A DNA stretch of 19,983 bases from contig JAEOTN010000555.1 of NCBI GenBank assembly GCA_016839865.1, forward strand, positions 1-19,983, read 5' to 3'. The notes under the pieces are model-generated. The model was not told the origin of the DNA. It searched no databases and saw only the letters and a list, made by a program, of their open reading frames with translations. Shown one piece after another: positions 4,673 through 19,983 of the stretch; positions within the stretch are counted from its first letter, which is position 1; the number at the start of each line of letters is the position of its first letter. The DNA is from Promethearchaeota archaeon (lineage in GTDB: Archaea; Asgardarchaeota; Lokiarchaeia; Sigynarchaeales; MK-D1). A program made the translations under genes and the position numbers.

Positions 4673-5806
4673 ATGTCTGAAGAGATTCCTCCTCCAACTG
4701 AGAAAAAGAAATGTCCAAAATGTTCTCGAGAATTACCTATTGATGCGCATTTTTGCCAAAGTTGTCAATATTCATTTAGCAATACTCTCGCTAATTCCGA
4801 AACCAATGTTAATTCTCAGTGGCGACGTGTAAAAAAACGCATAAAACAACAAAACAGTACTGTGGGTAAAACCAAGTCGAAATCCATTTTACGTACATGT
4901 ACAAATTGTAATGCAGTAGTCGATTCGATTGTATTAGAACAATGCCCCCTATGTATGCATGGACTCCCTTCTTTACCCCCGACTCAAAAGGATCAGTTAG
5001 ATCGAATGTTGTTTACTGGGAAAAAACTCGTATCTGAAAAAGAAATGAGAATTGATCGCAATGTCTGGACGAGTTGGAAGGAAATTTTCAATGTAATCTT
5101 CAGCTCCTTGCTAATATTCGTTTTAGCAGCATTAGTGGACTATGTTCTTGCTTTTCAAGAAGCTAGTTTCGATCCTGAATTATTTGTTTTACTACGGGGA
5201 TTGATTAATTTGGGTGCTTTTGTGACCTTAGGTATCTATCCATTTGTCTATGTACGTTTAAACAAACTAAAATGGGAAAAAATTGGATTTAAATCGAATA
5301 AACTTCTGTTTTGCATCCTTGTTGGGGTAGTAGGCGGCGGCATGTTATACTTCTCAGAATATGGAATTGAATATCTGATGGATTTCCTTCCTAATATATA
5401 CTTAAATCCAATAGTGAATACCCTATTTGGTAAACCAGAACCCTTAGTGGATTTTACTGCAGTTACTTTTCCTCTTAATTTAGCATTTATTGGAGGATTC
5501 TTACTGGCACAAATAATGGAAGAAATATTGTTTCGTGGAGTACTTCAAAATGGGATCTATGATATAGCAAAGAAAAAGAAGCGATCTAATCCTGGATTGA
5601 GAGGAGTTCTGTTCACTACGCTGATCTATGCTGGTTTTAATTTCTTCTTTAATTTTTCTGGGTATCTTCTTGTATTCAATCTAGCACTATCGCTTATTAC
5701 TGGCATTCTCTATGAGCTATCGAACCGTTCCTTGACGATAGTGATCTCCGCAAAAACAATATATGTCGGCTTAAGCATTCTATTTGCTTTTATACCCCTC
5801 CTCTAA
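4673..5806 (+). CDS. CPBP/CAAX-protease-like membrane protein with two zinc ribbons
   Basis: This 377-residue protein has a cytosolic N-terminus with two CxxC pairs forming zinc ribbons (C14/C17 with C28/C31, and C76/C79 with C91/C94). About six hydrophobic membrane segments follow, between residues 138 and 377. The C-terminal half resembles the CPBP intramembrane metalloprotease (Abi/CAAX, Rce1-like) fold. It has the first catalytic motif EExxxR at 283-288 (MEEILFRGVLQ). The later motifs normally supply histidines. Here the second motif reads IYAGFNFFF, with N323 where His is expected, and the fourth reads VISAKTIYV, with K361 where His is expected. The protein may therefore be a non-proteolytic relative, for example a membrane scaffold. 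The zinc ribbons suggest protein or nucleic-acid contacts. It is followed after 81 nt by a kinase-like gene on the same strand. Confidence 0.75.
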   Translation: MSEEIPPPTEKKKCPKCSRELPIDAHFCQSCQYSFSNTLANSETNVNSQWRRVKKRIKQQNSTVGKTKSKSILRTCTNCNAVVDSIVLEQCPLCMHGLPSLPPTQKDQLDRMLFTGKKLVSEKEMRIDRNVWTSWKEIFNVIFSSLLIFVLAALVDYVLAFQEASFDPELFVLLRGLINLGAFVTLGIYPFVYVRLNKLKWEKIGFKSNKLLFCILVGVVGGGMLYFSEYGIEYLMDFLPNIYLNPIVNTLFGKPEPLVDFTAVTFPLNLAFIGGFLLAQIMEEILFRGVLQNGIYDIAKKKKRSNPGLRGVLFTTLIYAGFNFFFNFSGYLLVFNLALSLITGILYELSNRSLTIVISAKTIYVGLSILFAFIPLL

Positions 5807-6589: not shown

Positions 6590-6765
6590 TACACGTTTAT
6601 AAAATTGTAAAAAAAACCTTAACAATATGTGCTACTATCTATTCTATAAGATAGAACACGAGTTGATTTTCGATTTTTGTAGATAGATCATGGATAAATG
6701 AGGTAAAAACTGCAGCTCAAGACATCAATCGCGCAATAAAAAAACAAGATTTCATTCAAGCGAAA
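6590..6765 (+). promoter_or_regulatory. Upstream region with TATA-like box, tiny ORFs and a likely out-of-frame N-terminus
   Basis: A TATA-like TTCTATAAGATAG lies near 6643-6655, overlapping a CTATCT/AGATAG inverted repeat. Transcription about 26 nt downstream would start just before an ATG at 6690. That ATG opens only M-D-K-stop, and a second ATG at 6698 opens M-R-stop. From about 6697 the frame of the downstream gene is open and encodes a plausible helix joined directly to its first ATG at 6766. This suggests the real start is 6690 with a one-base shift in the AAA run at 6696-6698 (see findings). Confidence 0.45.
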
Positions 6766-8097
6766 ATGCTAATTGAAAAGCTTATTCAATATCGAAAAGA
6801 TGGAGCGAACCCACGAATACGTCAAGATGCAGCTATTGCACTTGATTATATTACTCAAAAATATGGGAAAGAGCAACCTGAAGACTTTTTATCAGAAGAT
6901 TGGAAAGGAGATTTTAAAGGGATTAGAAAGCGGTTAAATAGATTGATCCAAACCCGAAACACAATGGAATTAAAACTATTGATCGAACGTATGAATGCTG
7001 TAACTACTACTAACATTGATCCTGATGTGAAATCTCAAGCTTTGAATATTCTCAGTGATATTGCGAACTATAACGCGAAATTGACTGATCAATTCGAGCA
7101 AAAATATCTTCGTCTTCTAATTAACGAGAAACATTCCAATCTGCAAAGACAACTCAACGATTTACTCGTTAGAATCGATCCATCAAGTTACTATGGTGAT
7201 TATGAAAAAACTTTAGAGAAATTAAGCCAAAGAGAGAAATCAATTAGTATTACGGTGAAACATGACTTTTCTAATGATTTTTTACGGTATAAAGTTCAAA
7301 TTTTAAATAATACAAATCAGATAATATGGGATGTAAATTACCGCATCAATTTGTATGAAAATAATTTCGTTATAAGGAAAATCTCTCCTGAGTATTACGA
7401 TTTTTTCGAAGGAAATGTGATCTTCTTATCTGTATTACGACCAGGAGATATGAAAGAAATTATTGCAACTATAGAACCACGTGCCGCGCAAATTTACCTA
7501 GAAGGTATGGTAAACTACAAGAAAGAAAATGAAAATGATTACTATGCAATCCCTGCAAAAGATTTGATGTTAGATCTATTAGAATATACACCAAAATTCC
7601 AAAAGTTGGAGAAAAAAGTAGGTGTGAGTCATATCAGGGAATTCTTTGATTTCCATGTGAAATATAAAAGTTCCAATGTATTTGCATTACCGGATTCAAT
7701 TACCCCAAAAGAAACATATTTAATTGGAAAACGCATTCTCGAGCATCTTCATTTAATTATCACATTAGATGTGATTGATGAAGAGCCATTCTTTGGAGAA
7801 GCATTGTTCTACGGTAAAACACATTCTAACGAGGAAACCGTGGTAATTCTACGATCTTCTGCTGAGAATCAATCATTAGAAATCACTATCGGTACTAATA
7901 ATAATTCAAATTTAGTTGCGTTACAGATAAGTTTTGATACGCAATTACGTCAACAAATATCTACGCATCCAAATTTCGGATCTAAAGATAAACTCATAGA
8001 ATTGAGATGTCCACAATGTCTTAGTAACTACGACAAAGTTAGAGAGTGGTGCCCTTGGTGTGGAGCTACCATCAATGAGGAAAATCTCCTTTCCTAA
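6766..8097 (+). CDS. Putative coat-adaptor-like protein: alpha-solenoid + appendage-like beta-sandwich/platform + zinc ribbon
   Basis: From ATG 6766 this is 443 residues; from a shifted ATG at 6690 it would be about 469. Residues 1-155 are helical and HEAT-like, with repeating pairs such as RIRQDAAIALDYI and VKSQALNILSDIA. Residues 158-278 look like an Ig-like beta-sandwich of adaptin/gamma-COP appendages, with KVQILNNTNQIIWDVNYRIN followed by LRPGDMKEIIATIEP. Residues 285-397 look like an alpha/beta platform subdomain (ALFYGKTHSNEETVVILR followed by a short strand pair). A zinc ribbon (C415/C418, C429/C432) ends the protein. That order is what an AP/COPI large-subunit fragment would show, but similarity is judged by eye. 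No catalytic motif, signal peptide or membrane segment is seen. It could instead be an archaeal HEAT plus sandwich protein with no trafficking role. It follows the kinase-like gene after 176 nt and is probably cytosolic. Confidence 0.6.
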   Translation: MLIEKLIQYRKDGANPRIRQDAAIALDYITQKYGKEQPEDFLSEDWKGDFKGIRKRLNRLIQTRNTMELKLLIERMNAVTTTNIDPDVKSQALNILSDIANYNAKLTDQFEQKYLRLLINEKHSNLQRQLNDLLVRIDPSSYYGDYEKTLEKLSQREKSISITVKHDFSNDFLRYKVQILNNTNQIIWDVNYRINLYENNFVIRKISPEYYDFFEGNVIFLSVLRPGDMKEIIATIEPRAAQIYLEGMVNYKKENENDYYAIPAKDLMLDLLEYTPKFQKLEKKVGVSHIREFFDFHVKYKSSNVFALPDSITPKETYLIGKRILEHLHLIITLDVIDEEPFFGEALFYGKTHSNEETVVILRSSAENQSLEITIGTNNNSNLVALQISFDTQLRQQISTHPNFGSKDKLIELRCPQCLSNYDKVREWCPWCGATINEENLLS

Positions 8098-12764: not shown

Positions 12765-13694
12765 TTATTTCTTCTCTTTTTTCTTATCTACATAACCTAA
12801 TTCACCCAATACGTCAAGCATTGCGTCATCATCGAATTCTGCATACTCGTTTGCAGCGAATTGATTAAATTCCGGACTTCTCTCGGCTTGTGTTTGTGGT
12901 GTGGGGCCAGGTGCACTTGGTTGTTGAGTCGTGCCAATTTCTAACGCTTCAACATCTTCTAATGGAACAGGAGGAACTTCATTTTCATATACTGGAAAAT
13001 CTTTGTCTTCGATCTTCAATTTGTAGGTTGATTGTGTGCTAACAGTCTCTGGTTTTTCTGGTTCAATATTCTGACCGATCATATACTCCTCACTAATTGA
13101 GACAATTCCATCTGATGCAGTTTTTTGTGTAGGAGAAGGAACTTCATCTCCTTCCCACTCATCTAGGAAACTAAGAACATCTTGCATAGCCGTTAAATCA
13201 TCACTTGCTGATACATCTGTCTCGAACATTTGTTCAATATTCTCTTCGGGTTTTTCTTTACGAGCTTTTTCTGCATCTAATTCCGCTCGCAATTCCTCAG
13301 TTACTTTTCCACCTGCGAGTATAAATGAGAATTTTTTACATCGTATACGTAATAACTCAAGATAATACCCAATTCGTGCTAAATTAGTCAAACCAGCAAA
13401 AGTGAGATAATTATTATCAATATGCATGAGGATAGCATATCCATCTTTCCCTCGAATGAGAATTTCCTTCAAATTTCCATGATGAAGGTTTTGAACAAAA
13501 TTCAATCCCACATCTATTAGAGCGGCTGAAGATGCCGCTAATGGGTCAACATCTACTTGAAAGGATTCTGCAGTAGCAATTTTCATCCCATTTCGGGACA
13601 GAATGGTCAAATTCTGTAGATCACTTGAATTCTCTATTCTCACCAGTTCATCCATTAGATTTTTTCTAATAGTATCACTTACATCGGTTGACAT
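12765..13694 (-). CDS. Roadblock/LC7 domain protein with long acidic tail
   Basis: This 309-residue protein starts with a Roadblock/LC7 domain, about residues 8-128. It has the pattern LMDELVRIENSSDLQNLTIL, NGMKIATA, SSAALIDVGLNFVQ, EILIRGKDGYAILMHID and YLTFAGLTNLARIGYYLELL. Such domains dimerise and act as platforms or regulators for small Ras-like GTPases, and they are strongly expanded in Asgard archaea. The remaining 180 residues are low-complexity, Glu/Pro/Gln/Thr-rich and probably disordered. A short acidic-hydrophobic motif (AEFDDDAMLDVLGELGY) and a lysine cluster lie at the very C-terminus and could be a peptide docking site. No GTPase gene lies in the window. The gene is followed by the MFS gene and is divergent from the tRNA-binding gene. 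Confidence 0.85.
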   Translation of the reverse strand: MSTDVSDTIRKNLMDELVRIENSSDLQNLTILSRNGMKIATAESFQVDVDPLAASSAALIDVGLNFVQNLHHGNLKEILIRGKDGYAILMHIDNNYLTFAGLTNLARIGYYLELLRIRCKKFSFILAGGKVTEELRAELDAEKARKEKPEENIEQMFETDVSASDDLTAMQDVLSFLDEWEGDEVPSPTQKTASDGIVSISEEYMIGQNIEPEKPETVSTQSTYKLKIEDKDFPVYENEVPPVPLEDVEALEIGTTQQPSAPGPTPQTQAERSPEFNQFAANEYAEFDDDAMLDVLGELGYVDKKKEKK

Positions 13695-19271: not shown

Positions 19272-19399
19272 AGATATTGAATCTTCCACCGATTACATAA
19301 ATCTTCTTTTTTTAAATTAAATGGGAGATCTATAGAGAGAGAAAGAATTATTAGAGAAAACTAAGATAACAAAGACATAAACAAGAAGAAGTGATAATT

Positions 19400-19983
19400 G
19401 TGCCTCGAATCGAATTTTATATCAACACGAAAACGGGATTAATGCTCCACAAATTCTCAGTTAAAAAAAATGCTTCAATAGATGAAAAGAACGATCAACT
19501 CGTTTCTGGATTACTATCCGCTATTAATTCGTTTGCATCCGATATCGGTTGGTCAGATGGAGTGTCGATGATTCGATCCGGATCCATCGAAGCAAGATAC
19601 AGTCAAGGAGAACATGTTTTTGGGATATTAATCGTAGATTATTACAAACCCGGTATTGCAGATTCAGAGTCTGCACTAGATGGATTTGCTCGAGATATCA
19701 CGGAACGTTTTGAGTCTGTGTATGCAAAGGAGTTAGCTGAGGCAAAAAGCACTAATAAATACGATATCACTTTGTTTCAAGATTTTGGTAAGCATATAGA
19801 TGACGTAATCTATGCAAATAATAATCAAATTGCTGAAATTTACCAGCAACAAATCTTAGTTCAATCCATATATTCTGACGTACCTCAAGAAATGATTCTC
19901 CCATTAATGCATCGTTTGAAATCGGGTGAAAACATATTAGATGACCTCCCAGATCTCATATTGAAATATCCCGTTATGCTGAA
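19400..19983 (+). CDS. Longin/Roadblock-like protein, truncated at the window edge
   Basis: This open frame starts at GTG 19400, or an in-frame GTG at 19391, and runs off the right end (at least 194 codons). The N-terminal 120 residues look like a longin or roadblock-type alpha/beta domain. A strand and turn (RIEFYINTKTGLMLHKFSVK) come first. Then comes the helix QLVSGLLSAINSFASDIGWS, where L-x-S-G-L-[LI]-x-A-I-x-S-F is a recurring pattern of Asgard longin/roadblock-like proteins. A strand pair GVSMIRSGSIEARYSQGEHV, the strand FGILIVDYYKP and a long helix follow. The remainder is helical with no clear motif. Such proteins are thought to work with small GTPases. No TATA box is obvious. A GAAGAAG stretch upstream could serve as a weak ribosome-binding site. 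Product length and C-terminus are unknown. Confidence 0.65.
   Translation, partial: MPRIEFYINTKTGLMLHKFSVKKNASIDEKNDQLVSGLLSAINSFASDIGWSDGVSMIRSGSIEARYSQGEHVFGILIVDYYKPGIADSESALDGFARDITERFESVYAKELAEAKSTNKYDITLFQDFGKHIDDVIYANNNQIAEIYQQQILVQSIYSDVPQEMILPLMHRLKSGENILDDLPDLILKYPVML

Follow-up and report, generated by a model that had tools for sequence, protein, structure and literature searches.

A candidate adaptor protein of Asgard archaea that joins a HEAT-like solenoid to a two-lobed appendage and a zinc ribbon

A 19,983-nucleotide stretch of DNA from a Promethearchaeota archaeon (positions 1 to 19,983 of contig JAEOTN010000555.1, assembly GCA_016839865.1), called the window in its full length, encodes a protein in which a HEAT-like helical solenoid is followed by a two-lobed appendage, composed of an immunoglobulin (Ig)-like beta-sandwich and a platform, and by a zinc ribbon. 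In structural comparisons the appendage is matched best by those of adaptor protein (AP) complex 2 and of coat protein complex I (COPI), and within the archaeal phylum it is related by sequence to other appendage proteins. The reading favored, with moderate confidence, is that of a soluble Asgard adaptor or scaffold with a GTPase-linked role in recruitment. The gene and its domains are located in the window as follows.

6679..8097, + strand: whole gene, about 472 codons if the start is at 6679 as in the orthologues; first in-frame ATG at 6766
6679..7209, + strand: N-terminal HEAT-like helical solenoid, about ten helices, about 170 residues
7243..7575, + strand: Ig-like beta-sandwich, the first appendage lobe (AlphaFold2 model of window:7192-7974, Foldseek, VIA)
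7624..7962, + strand: platform, the second lobe (helix-strand-helix-four strands-helix)
8008..8064, + strand: Cys4 zinc ribbon, CPxC...CPWCG, with invariant cysteines; zinc-ribbon models of the NOB1/HypA type touch the C-terminus

Domain architecture and predicted structure

The initial annotation, made from the DNA letters, had proposed helical repeats, a sandwich, an alpha/beta platform and a zinc ribbon. The first three are all present in the AlphaFold2 models, and the ribbon is of the Cys4 type, its four cysteines being unchanged across all 15 members that were aligned. In the full-length model helices extend from H2 to H175, such that the N-terminus is entirely helical; VIA matched the solenoid to ARM/HEAT proteins, including the trunk of AP2 alpha, and HEAT_ECM29 was matched in the N-termini of four of eight members (best E 7.5e-6). 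Residues 158-397, in the numbering of the initial annotation, form a beta-sandwich and then a platform, with a mean predicted local distance difference test score (pLDDT) of 89. The sandwich was unresolved in the first, full-length model (pLDDT <50 at 177-199 and 203-253) and became resolved in a second model of sandwich and platform alone, in which its strands occupy residues 18-128 with a pLDDT mostly of 83-94. Five residues separate the last helix from the first strand in the better model and 18 in the first, where the stretch is uncertain; the long flexible hinge that connects trunk and appendage in AP and COPI large subunits is absent from the AlphaFold2 models. A phenylalanine, F316, is invariant in 23 of 23 sequences and, by the order of the structural elements, presumably lies near the platform tryptophans of AP2 alpha (W840) and gamma-COP (W776). 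Its participation in a peptide pocket is a lead only.

The reading frame opens with an ATG at 6766 and ends at 8097 (+), giving 443 residues that contain all three peptides quoted in the initial annotation. The start at 6690 given there had to be abandoned, the ATG being out of frame. Full-length relatives are longer by about 30 residues at the N-terminus (MDRSW...), and the window upstream of 6766 matches this extension in frame to about 6679; a TGA at 6664 closes the frame. The codon at 6679 is GTG in the orthologues L001 and L002 (L designates fetched loci, G genomes), GTA in the window and GTT in L005, which makes the start uncertain, and between the TGA and position 6766 the window contains no ATG, GTG or TTG in frame. 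The GTA may stem from an error in sequencing or from a point change, or translation may begin at a rare codon, the ATT at 6673.

Structural comparison with AP, COPI and BBSome subunits

A Foldseek search of the PDB with sandwich and platform yielded AP2 or COPI appendages as its best 16 matches, followed by a BBSome subunit in 17th place. The best match, 9qpq_H (E 3.1e-11), is presumably beta-COP, with which its numbering (722-953) agrees. The sandwich-plus-platform pair and its position behind a HEAT-like solenoid, the domain plan of a coat adaptor subunit that the initial annotation had read from the sequence, were borne out, with AP2 and COPI appendages as the closest structures; a predicted structure without the pair, named in that annotation as refuting, was not obtained. 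The matches span both lobes, yet the lobes cannot be superposed as a rigid pair on any appendage.

AP2 alpha and beta2 appendages possess both lobes in the same order as here, and of AP4 beta the platform was matched; identities in the Foldseek alignments amount to 10-14%, and the lobes are not jointly superposable. The trunk of AP and COPI large subunits comprises about 600 residues. Unlike the AP large subunits, the archaeal protein has no long hinge, a trunk of about 170 residues and an additional zinc ribbon. The appendages of beta- and gamma-COP (9qpq_H, 1pzd, 1r4x, 5a1u_E) are alike in fold, whereas their sequence likeness has no significance, and they differ in the same respects as those of AP: joint superposition, hinge, trunk length and ribbon. 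In the BBSome subunits 6vbv_7 and 6vbu_9 a region of sandwich plus platform matches. BBSome subunits bear beta-propellers, whereas the modeled N-terminus here is all-helical. A GGA-like reading (VHS domain plus ear) was also considered; the GGA monomeric adaptors are characterized by an N-terminal VHS domain and a GAE ear devoid of a platform. The absence of a family from the VIA lists was not taken as its exclusion.

Sequence tests against eukaryotic adaptins

No Pfam adaptin model exceeded its cut-off for this protein or the relatives scanned, and neither PF02883 (adaptin ear) nor PF09066 did so in any of 227 genomes of the phylum. PF02883 was the top Pfam family for five of nine relatives in one scan (L042, L044, L052, L053, L032), with E values of 2.5e-4 to 1.3e-3 that remained below the cut-off; elsewhere it reached E 0.084 for L010, one of ten scanned, and E 0.086 for one of 15 family members. 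At E<=0.01 it matched 26 of the 227 genomes and 2 of 14 controls; since controls match too, its frequency constitutes no evidence. PF09066 matches three of the 227 genomes, in proteins that by reading are of the HEAT/winged-helix type and lie beyond the reach of the window-family profile. In the open frames of L054-L056 (916-924 residues), HEAT-repeat plus winged-helix by reading, a partial, sub-threshold B2-adapt-app_C match was observed. PF01602 (Adaptin_N) found no match at the N-terminus among eight members; its 25 places in the seven genomes that hold the full architecture (holder genomes; see below) do not include this gene, and three of the 14 controls match as well.

In hhalign comparisons of the window family with single sequences of gamma-COP, AP2 alpha and beta2, the scores fell inside the shuffled range. 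With a 61-row Asgard profile, decoys scored as high in 37 of 61 cases for gamma-COP, 5 of 61 for AP2 alpha and 23 of 61 for beta2; for the parts of gamma-COP, the corresponding values were 59 of 61 (sandwich alone) and 21 of 61 (platform). A likeness to the gamma-COP sequence seen by eye was dropped because of these scores. When the extended profile A4 was compared with PDB sequences, the AP-1 gamma ear ranked third, but at E 0.23. From the sub-cut-off PF02883 matches, the E value of the ear and the hhalign scores it follows that the tie to eukaryotic adaptins consists in the fold and the order of the domains, the hints from sequence being weak, whereas the tie within the archaeal phylum is one of sequence. 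These results do not establish the protein as an ancestor of coats, a coat component or a sequence homologue of adaptins, there being no adaptin model over cut-off and no hhalign score outside the shuffled range.

Relatives and distribution

A search of 5.8 billion proteins retrieved 17 clusters at E<=0.001. A profile of 15 rows raised the number to 20 at E<=10, and a second profile added four, for a total of 24, counts that include fragments and the window's own cluster. The 17 clusters, together with a gene order kept in two related metagenome-assembled genomes (MAGs), establish the reading frame as a real, conserved gene. The organism names given for members are Lokiarchaeota or Promethearchaeota, except for P0021, labeled Bathyarchaeota; P0021 matches the product of locus L009 in genome G162, which the phylum search puts into one phylum with the Lokiarchaeota MAG G001. 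These relatives point to a lokiarchaeal origin of the window.

The 15-row profile has a match in 28 of the 227 genomes at E<=0.01, many of them weak. The full architecture occurs in seven: G001, G002 and G092 contain the window's family, and G158, G159, G161 and G162 a sister subfamily that is 24-26% identical, the full-length match of G162 coming as two overlapping pieces. An iterated hmmsearch seeded with the sandwich and platform of both groups was run against 489 open reading frames (ORFs) of the fetched loci, 24 proteins and 1956 shuffled or reversed decoys. In four rounds no decoy fell below E 0.1, and the end set comprised 37 locus ORFs: 11 of the seed groups, 2 second copies and 24 further genes, of which 20 are covered over both lobes and four (L014, L015, L017, L019) over the platform only. 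With the extended profile A4, at most seven candidates being scored per genome and weaker matches being possibly partial, 124 of the 227 genomes match at E<=0.001. How widely the protein occurs in Asgard genomes, a question raised in the initial annotation, is thus answered by 7 of 227 for the full architecture and 124 of 227 for the sandwich-plus-platform profile.

A terminal zinc ribbon was recognized by reading in 20 of these 24 genes, the exceptions being L022, L028, L049 and L050; the fused ribbon, which the initial annotation contrasted with eukaryotic adaptins and COPs, is real but is not peculiar to this protein. The further genes include short sandwich-platform-ribbon proteins of 328-362 residues (L042-L044, L046-L048, L051-L053), proteins with TPR-like or hydrophobic N-terminal stretches (L012, L016, L018, L032, by reading), and the four platform-only genes, which by reading have zinc-ribbon arrays before platform and ribbon and in which the profile finds no Ig sandwich. 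L049 and L050 combine a PCI/UFL1-like winged-helix domain, sandwich, platform and VPS28 in one chain of about 800 residues, with PCI scores of 89.8 and 73.3 bits (cut-off 22) and VPS28 scores of 26.5 and 24.7 bits (cut-off 24.5). In the first hmmsearch round the window-family profile matched both lobes of L049 at E 6.2e-10 and of L050 at E 7.9e-8, and by this sequence relationship the appendage module shares homology with those appendage proteins of Asgard archaea that carry VPS28 and PCI domains. The PCI, UFL1-like, DDRGK-like and VPS28 models each exceed their Pfam cut-offs in L049 and L050, a mixture of ESCRT-like (endosomal sorting complex required for transport) and UFMylation-like parts.

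The weakest 15-row matches, L020, L021, L023-L027, L029 and L030, were not recovered by the iterated hmmsearch and were dropped as chance or ribbon-only matches. Among the 12 best PF02883 loci of the phylum, which represent few families, 11 carry sandwich plus platform; the exception, L045, was likewise unrecovered, has no such pair and was dropped.

Relation to published archaeal appendage proteins

Makarova et al. 2024 (PMC10936438) report adaptin-appendage regions (IG plus TBP fold) in archaeal ESCRT systems. They describe a 'Meth_adaptin' appendage protein of Methanobacteriales (WP_013898571.1) with a Zn-ribbon and an uncharacterized N-terminal domain, to which the present protein is likened by that description, and fusions of Asgard appendages with Vps28-C and longin, in which TPR, IG-like and HTH/PCI domains are further parts. 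Archaeal adaptin-appendage proteins also appear in Eme et al. 2023 (PMC10307638). These proteins have an IG sandwich followed by a helix-grip platform, as does the predicted structure here, and through these two publications the appendage module is known. In contrast to the published appendages, its partner domain here is a HEAT-like solenoid, Vps28-C is undetected and the gene lies outside an ESCRT locus. The new part is the fusion of the module to the solenoid. The literature searched contained no account of a HEAT-appendage-zinc-ribbon protein; an earlier mention, for instance in supplementary files or on bioRxiv, is possible.

The protein bears on the open question of how vesicle-coat adaptors originated. 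Archaeal appendage modules had been described before; the present one is fused to a helical solenoid within a soluble protein, and in the sister subfamily the gene is close to those of small GTPases. With about 470 residues the protein is a small target for asking whether the recruitment hub of AP and COPI predates eukaryotes.

Proposed function and alternatives

The appendages of AP and COPI recruit accessory factors under the control of Arf. By analogy, the two-lobed appendage most likely serves as a hub for short peptide motifs carried by partner proteins, while the solenoid would dock the protein onto a second protein or a complex, with the zinc ribbon as an additional contact. The protein probably works with GTPases of the Ras/Rab/Rag type, as probable upstream regulators, and with ESCRT-related membrane machinery. 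The predicted fold, the domain order, the conservation and the sequence homology between the module and further appendage proteins of Asgard archaea are observed; peptide binding, docking, GTPase control and a role at membranes are proposed from the likeness to AP and COPI.

GTPase genes lie near the genes of the sister subfamily.

L033:4615-6410, L034:7220-8977, L035:10377-12165, L036:6346-8071: Ras-domain and Rag/Gtr-like GTPases near sister-subfamily genes

In G158, G159 and G161 the gene stands tail to tail, at distances of 6, 6 and 32 bp, with that of a 345-349-residue protein whose C-terminal part is a Ras domain (E 1e-42 to 2.4e-45), and a Gtr1/RagA-type GTPase (E 5e-9 to 2.6e-13) is located 78-100 bp beyond the latter. 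G162 has two Ras-family genes on the opposite side of the gene, the nearer one 859 bp off. The adjacency is suggestive of a functional link. The first approximately 175 residues of the 345-349-residue proteins have no Pfam match and by eye look longin-like. The holder genomes were scanned for genes of possible co-workers: Snf7 of ESCRT-III exceeds its cut-off in seven of seven compared with none of 14 controls, and Arf-family matches number 21-58 per genome. PF00928, the mu C-terminal domain, matches in four of seven, over the cut-off in two, and in none of the 14 controls; G001, G002 and G158 have no match. PF01217, the small subunit, matches in two of seven, never over the cut-off. The PF00928 matches over cut-off are in 730-residue open frames (G092:C536:13997-14335 and G161:C533:29283-29912).

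Several findings weigh against an adaptor of this kind. No interaction partners are known. The 16 AP2 and COPI matches superpose poorly over both lobes, with a root-mean-square deviation (rmsd) of 11-19 A and a query template-modeling (TM) score of 0.29-0.37, and in VIA ranks 5-11 hold Ig domains of TRAP, integrin and pilin among the AP rows. The genes next to that of the window, for a deoxynucleoside kinase and a beta-eliminating lyase, are not trafficking genes, nor, by reading, are the neighbors in G092. VPS28 exceeds the cut-off in one of the seven holder genomes (G001), with matches in two; the G001 match shares its open frame with a sandwich-plus-platform match. The GTPase neighbors of the sister subfamily are convergent (divergent in G162), so they do not form one operon with the gene, and the neighborhood is common to three of the four genomes, which therefore count as one event. 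Finally, Ras matches are dense (49 places in 5.1 Mb, 45 in 6.4, 61 in 7.8 and 37 in 4.2), about one every 100-140 kb as calculated by hand, a density at which a few per cent of genes would have such a neighbor.

It is conceivable, if somewhat unlikely, that the resemblance is an analogy of fold, in which an Ig sandwich of generic type came together independently with an alpha/beta helix-grip domain, as a scaffold for another process with no link to adaptins or trafficking. This would agree with the negative outcome of the sequence comparisons with gamma-COP, AP2 alpha and beta2, the frequency of PF02883 in the phylum, no higher than in controls, the failure of the two lobes to superpose together on any appendage, and the metabolic or housekeeping character of the window neighbors. 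Arguing against it are the recurrence of the two folds in the AP2/COPI order, with AP2 or COPI in all of the top 16 PDB places, and the sandwich-plus-platform pair in 11 of the 12 best PF02883 loci, few as their families are.

The stronger proposal, of a single-chain adaptor with HEAT trunk and appendage, paired with Ras/Rag-type GTPases, that represents a compact AP/COPI plan and shares an ancestor with the eukaryotic coat adaptors, is distinctly unlikely. Even less credence is given to a direct relative of AP/COPI large subunits, a compact survivor of a trunk-plus-appendage protein older than eukaryotes that still functions in a coat-like complex. One chain does contain a HEAT-like domain and, behind it, an appendage, as the plan requires; the full-length model matches gamma-COP (5a1u_E) beyond the appendage (Foldseek E 1.2e-4, 532 columns), VIA aligns 208 residues, model 64-412 on chain 444-873 of 5a1u_E, and PF00928 is found in holder genomes and not in controls. 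However, the full-length COPI alignments have an rmsd of 15-25 A, the solenoid is less than a third as long as an AP/COPI trunk and unmatched by Adaptin_N, the hinge is missing, and among the helical matches CLASP, CAND1, importin and designed repeats rank equally. Moreover, the genomes of the closest orthologues, G001 and G002, have no PF00928 match, and PF01217 exceeds its cut-off in none of the seven. A relative of metal chaperones or ribosome factors, as implied by the name 'Zn finger protein HypA/HybF' in some databases and by one source that so labels a homologue, is barely credible, and membership in HypA or NOB1 was rejected: their zinc-ribbon models touch the C-terminus, that of HypA (E 7.7e-4) below its cut-off and confined to residues 369-435 of 443, whereas appendage and solenoid account for the remaining predicted fold.

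Genomic neighborhood

The gene order in the window is thioredoxin, KsgA, DUF655, Rpb4, a protein that we take to be eL21, Pus10, CAAX protease, deoxynucleoside kinase, the gene, beta-eliminating lyase and further genes. The whole order is kept in L002/L041 of G001, and the order from the gene onward in L001/L040 of G002. The ordered neighbors include no known trafficking gene, and no ESCRT gene was recognized in the window; location in an ESCRT locus is a feature of the published Meth_ and Halo_adaptin systems, not of every appendage protein. Two genes upstream, at 4673-5806, a CAAX-protease-like protein with an N-terminal zinc ribbon is encoded, in an order kept in G001. A Roadblock/LC7 domain protein is encoded at 12765-13694, 4.7 kb downstream, in an order kept in G001 and G002, and a protein without a Pfam match at 19391-19981 bears a weak likeness to the C-terminus of L022 (E 0.009 in a single comparison). 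The G001 orthologue has a Snf7 gene about 9 kb upstream; next to that Snf7 gene, at L057:13140-15886, a zinc-ribbon protein of 685 residues is encoded that is similar, by reading, to the published ESCRT-I candidate Znr_PH_CC_SB.
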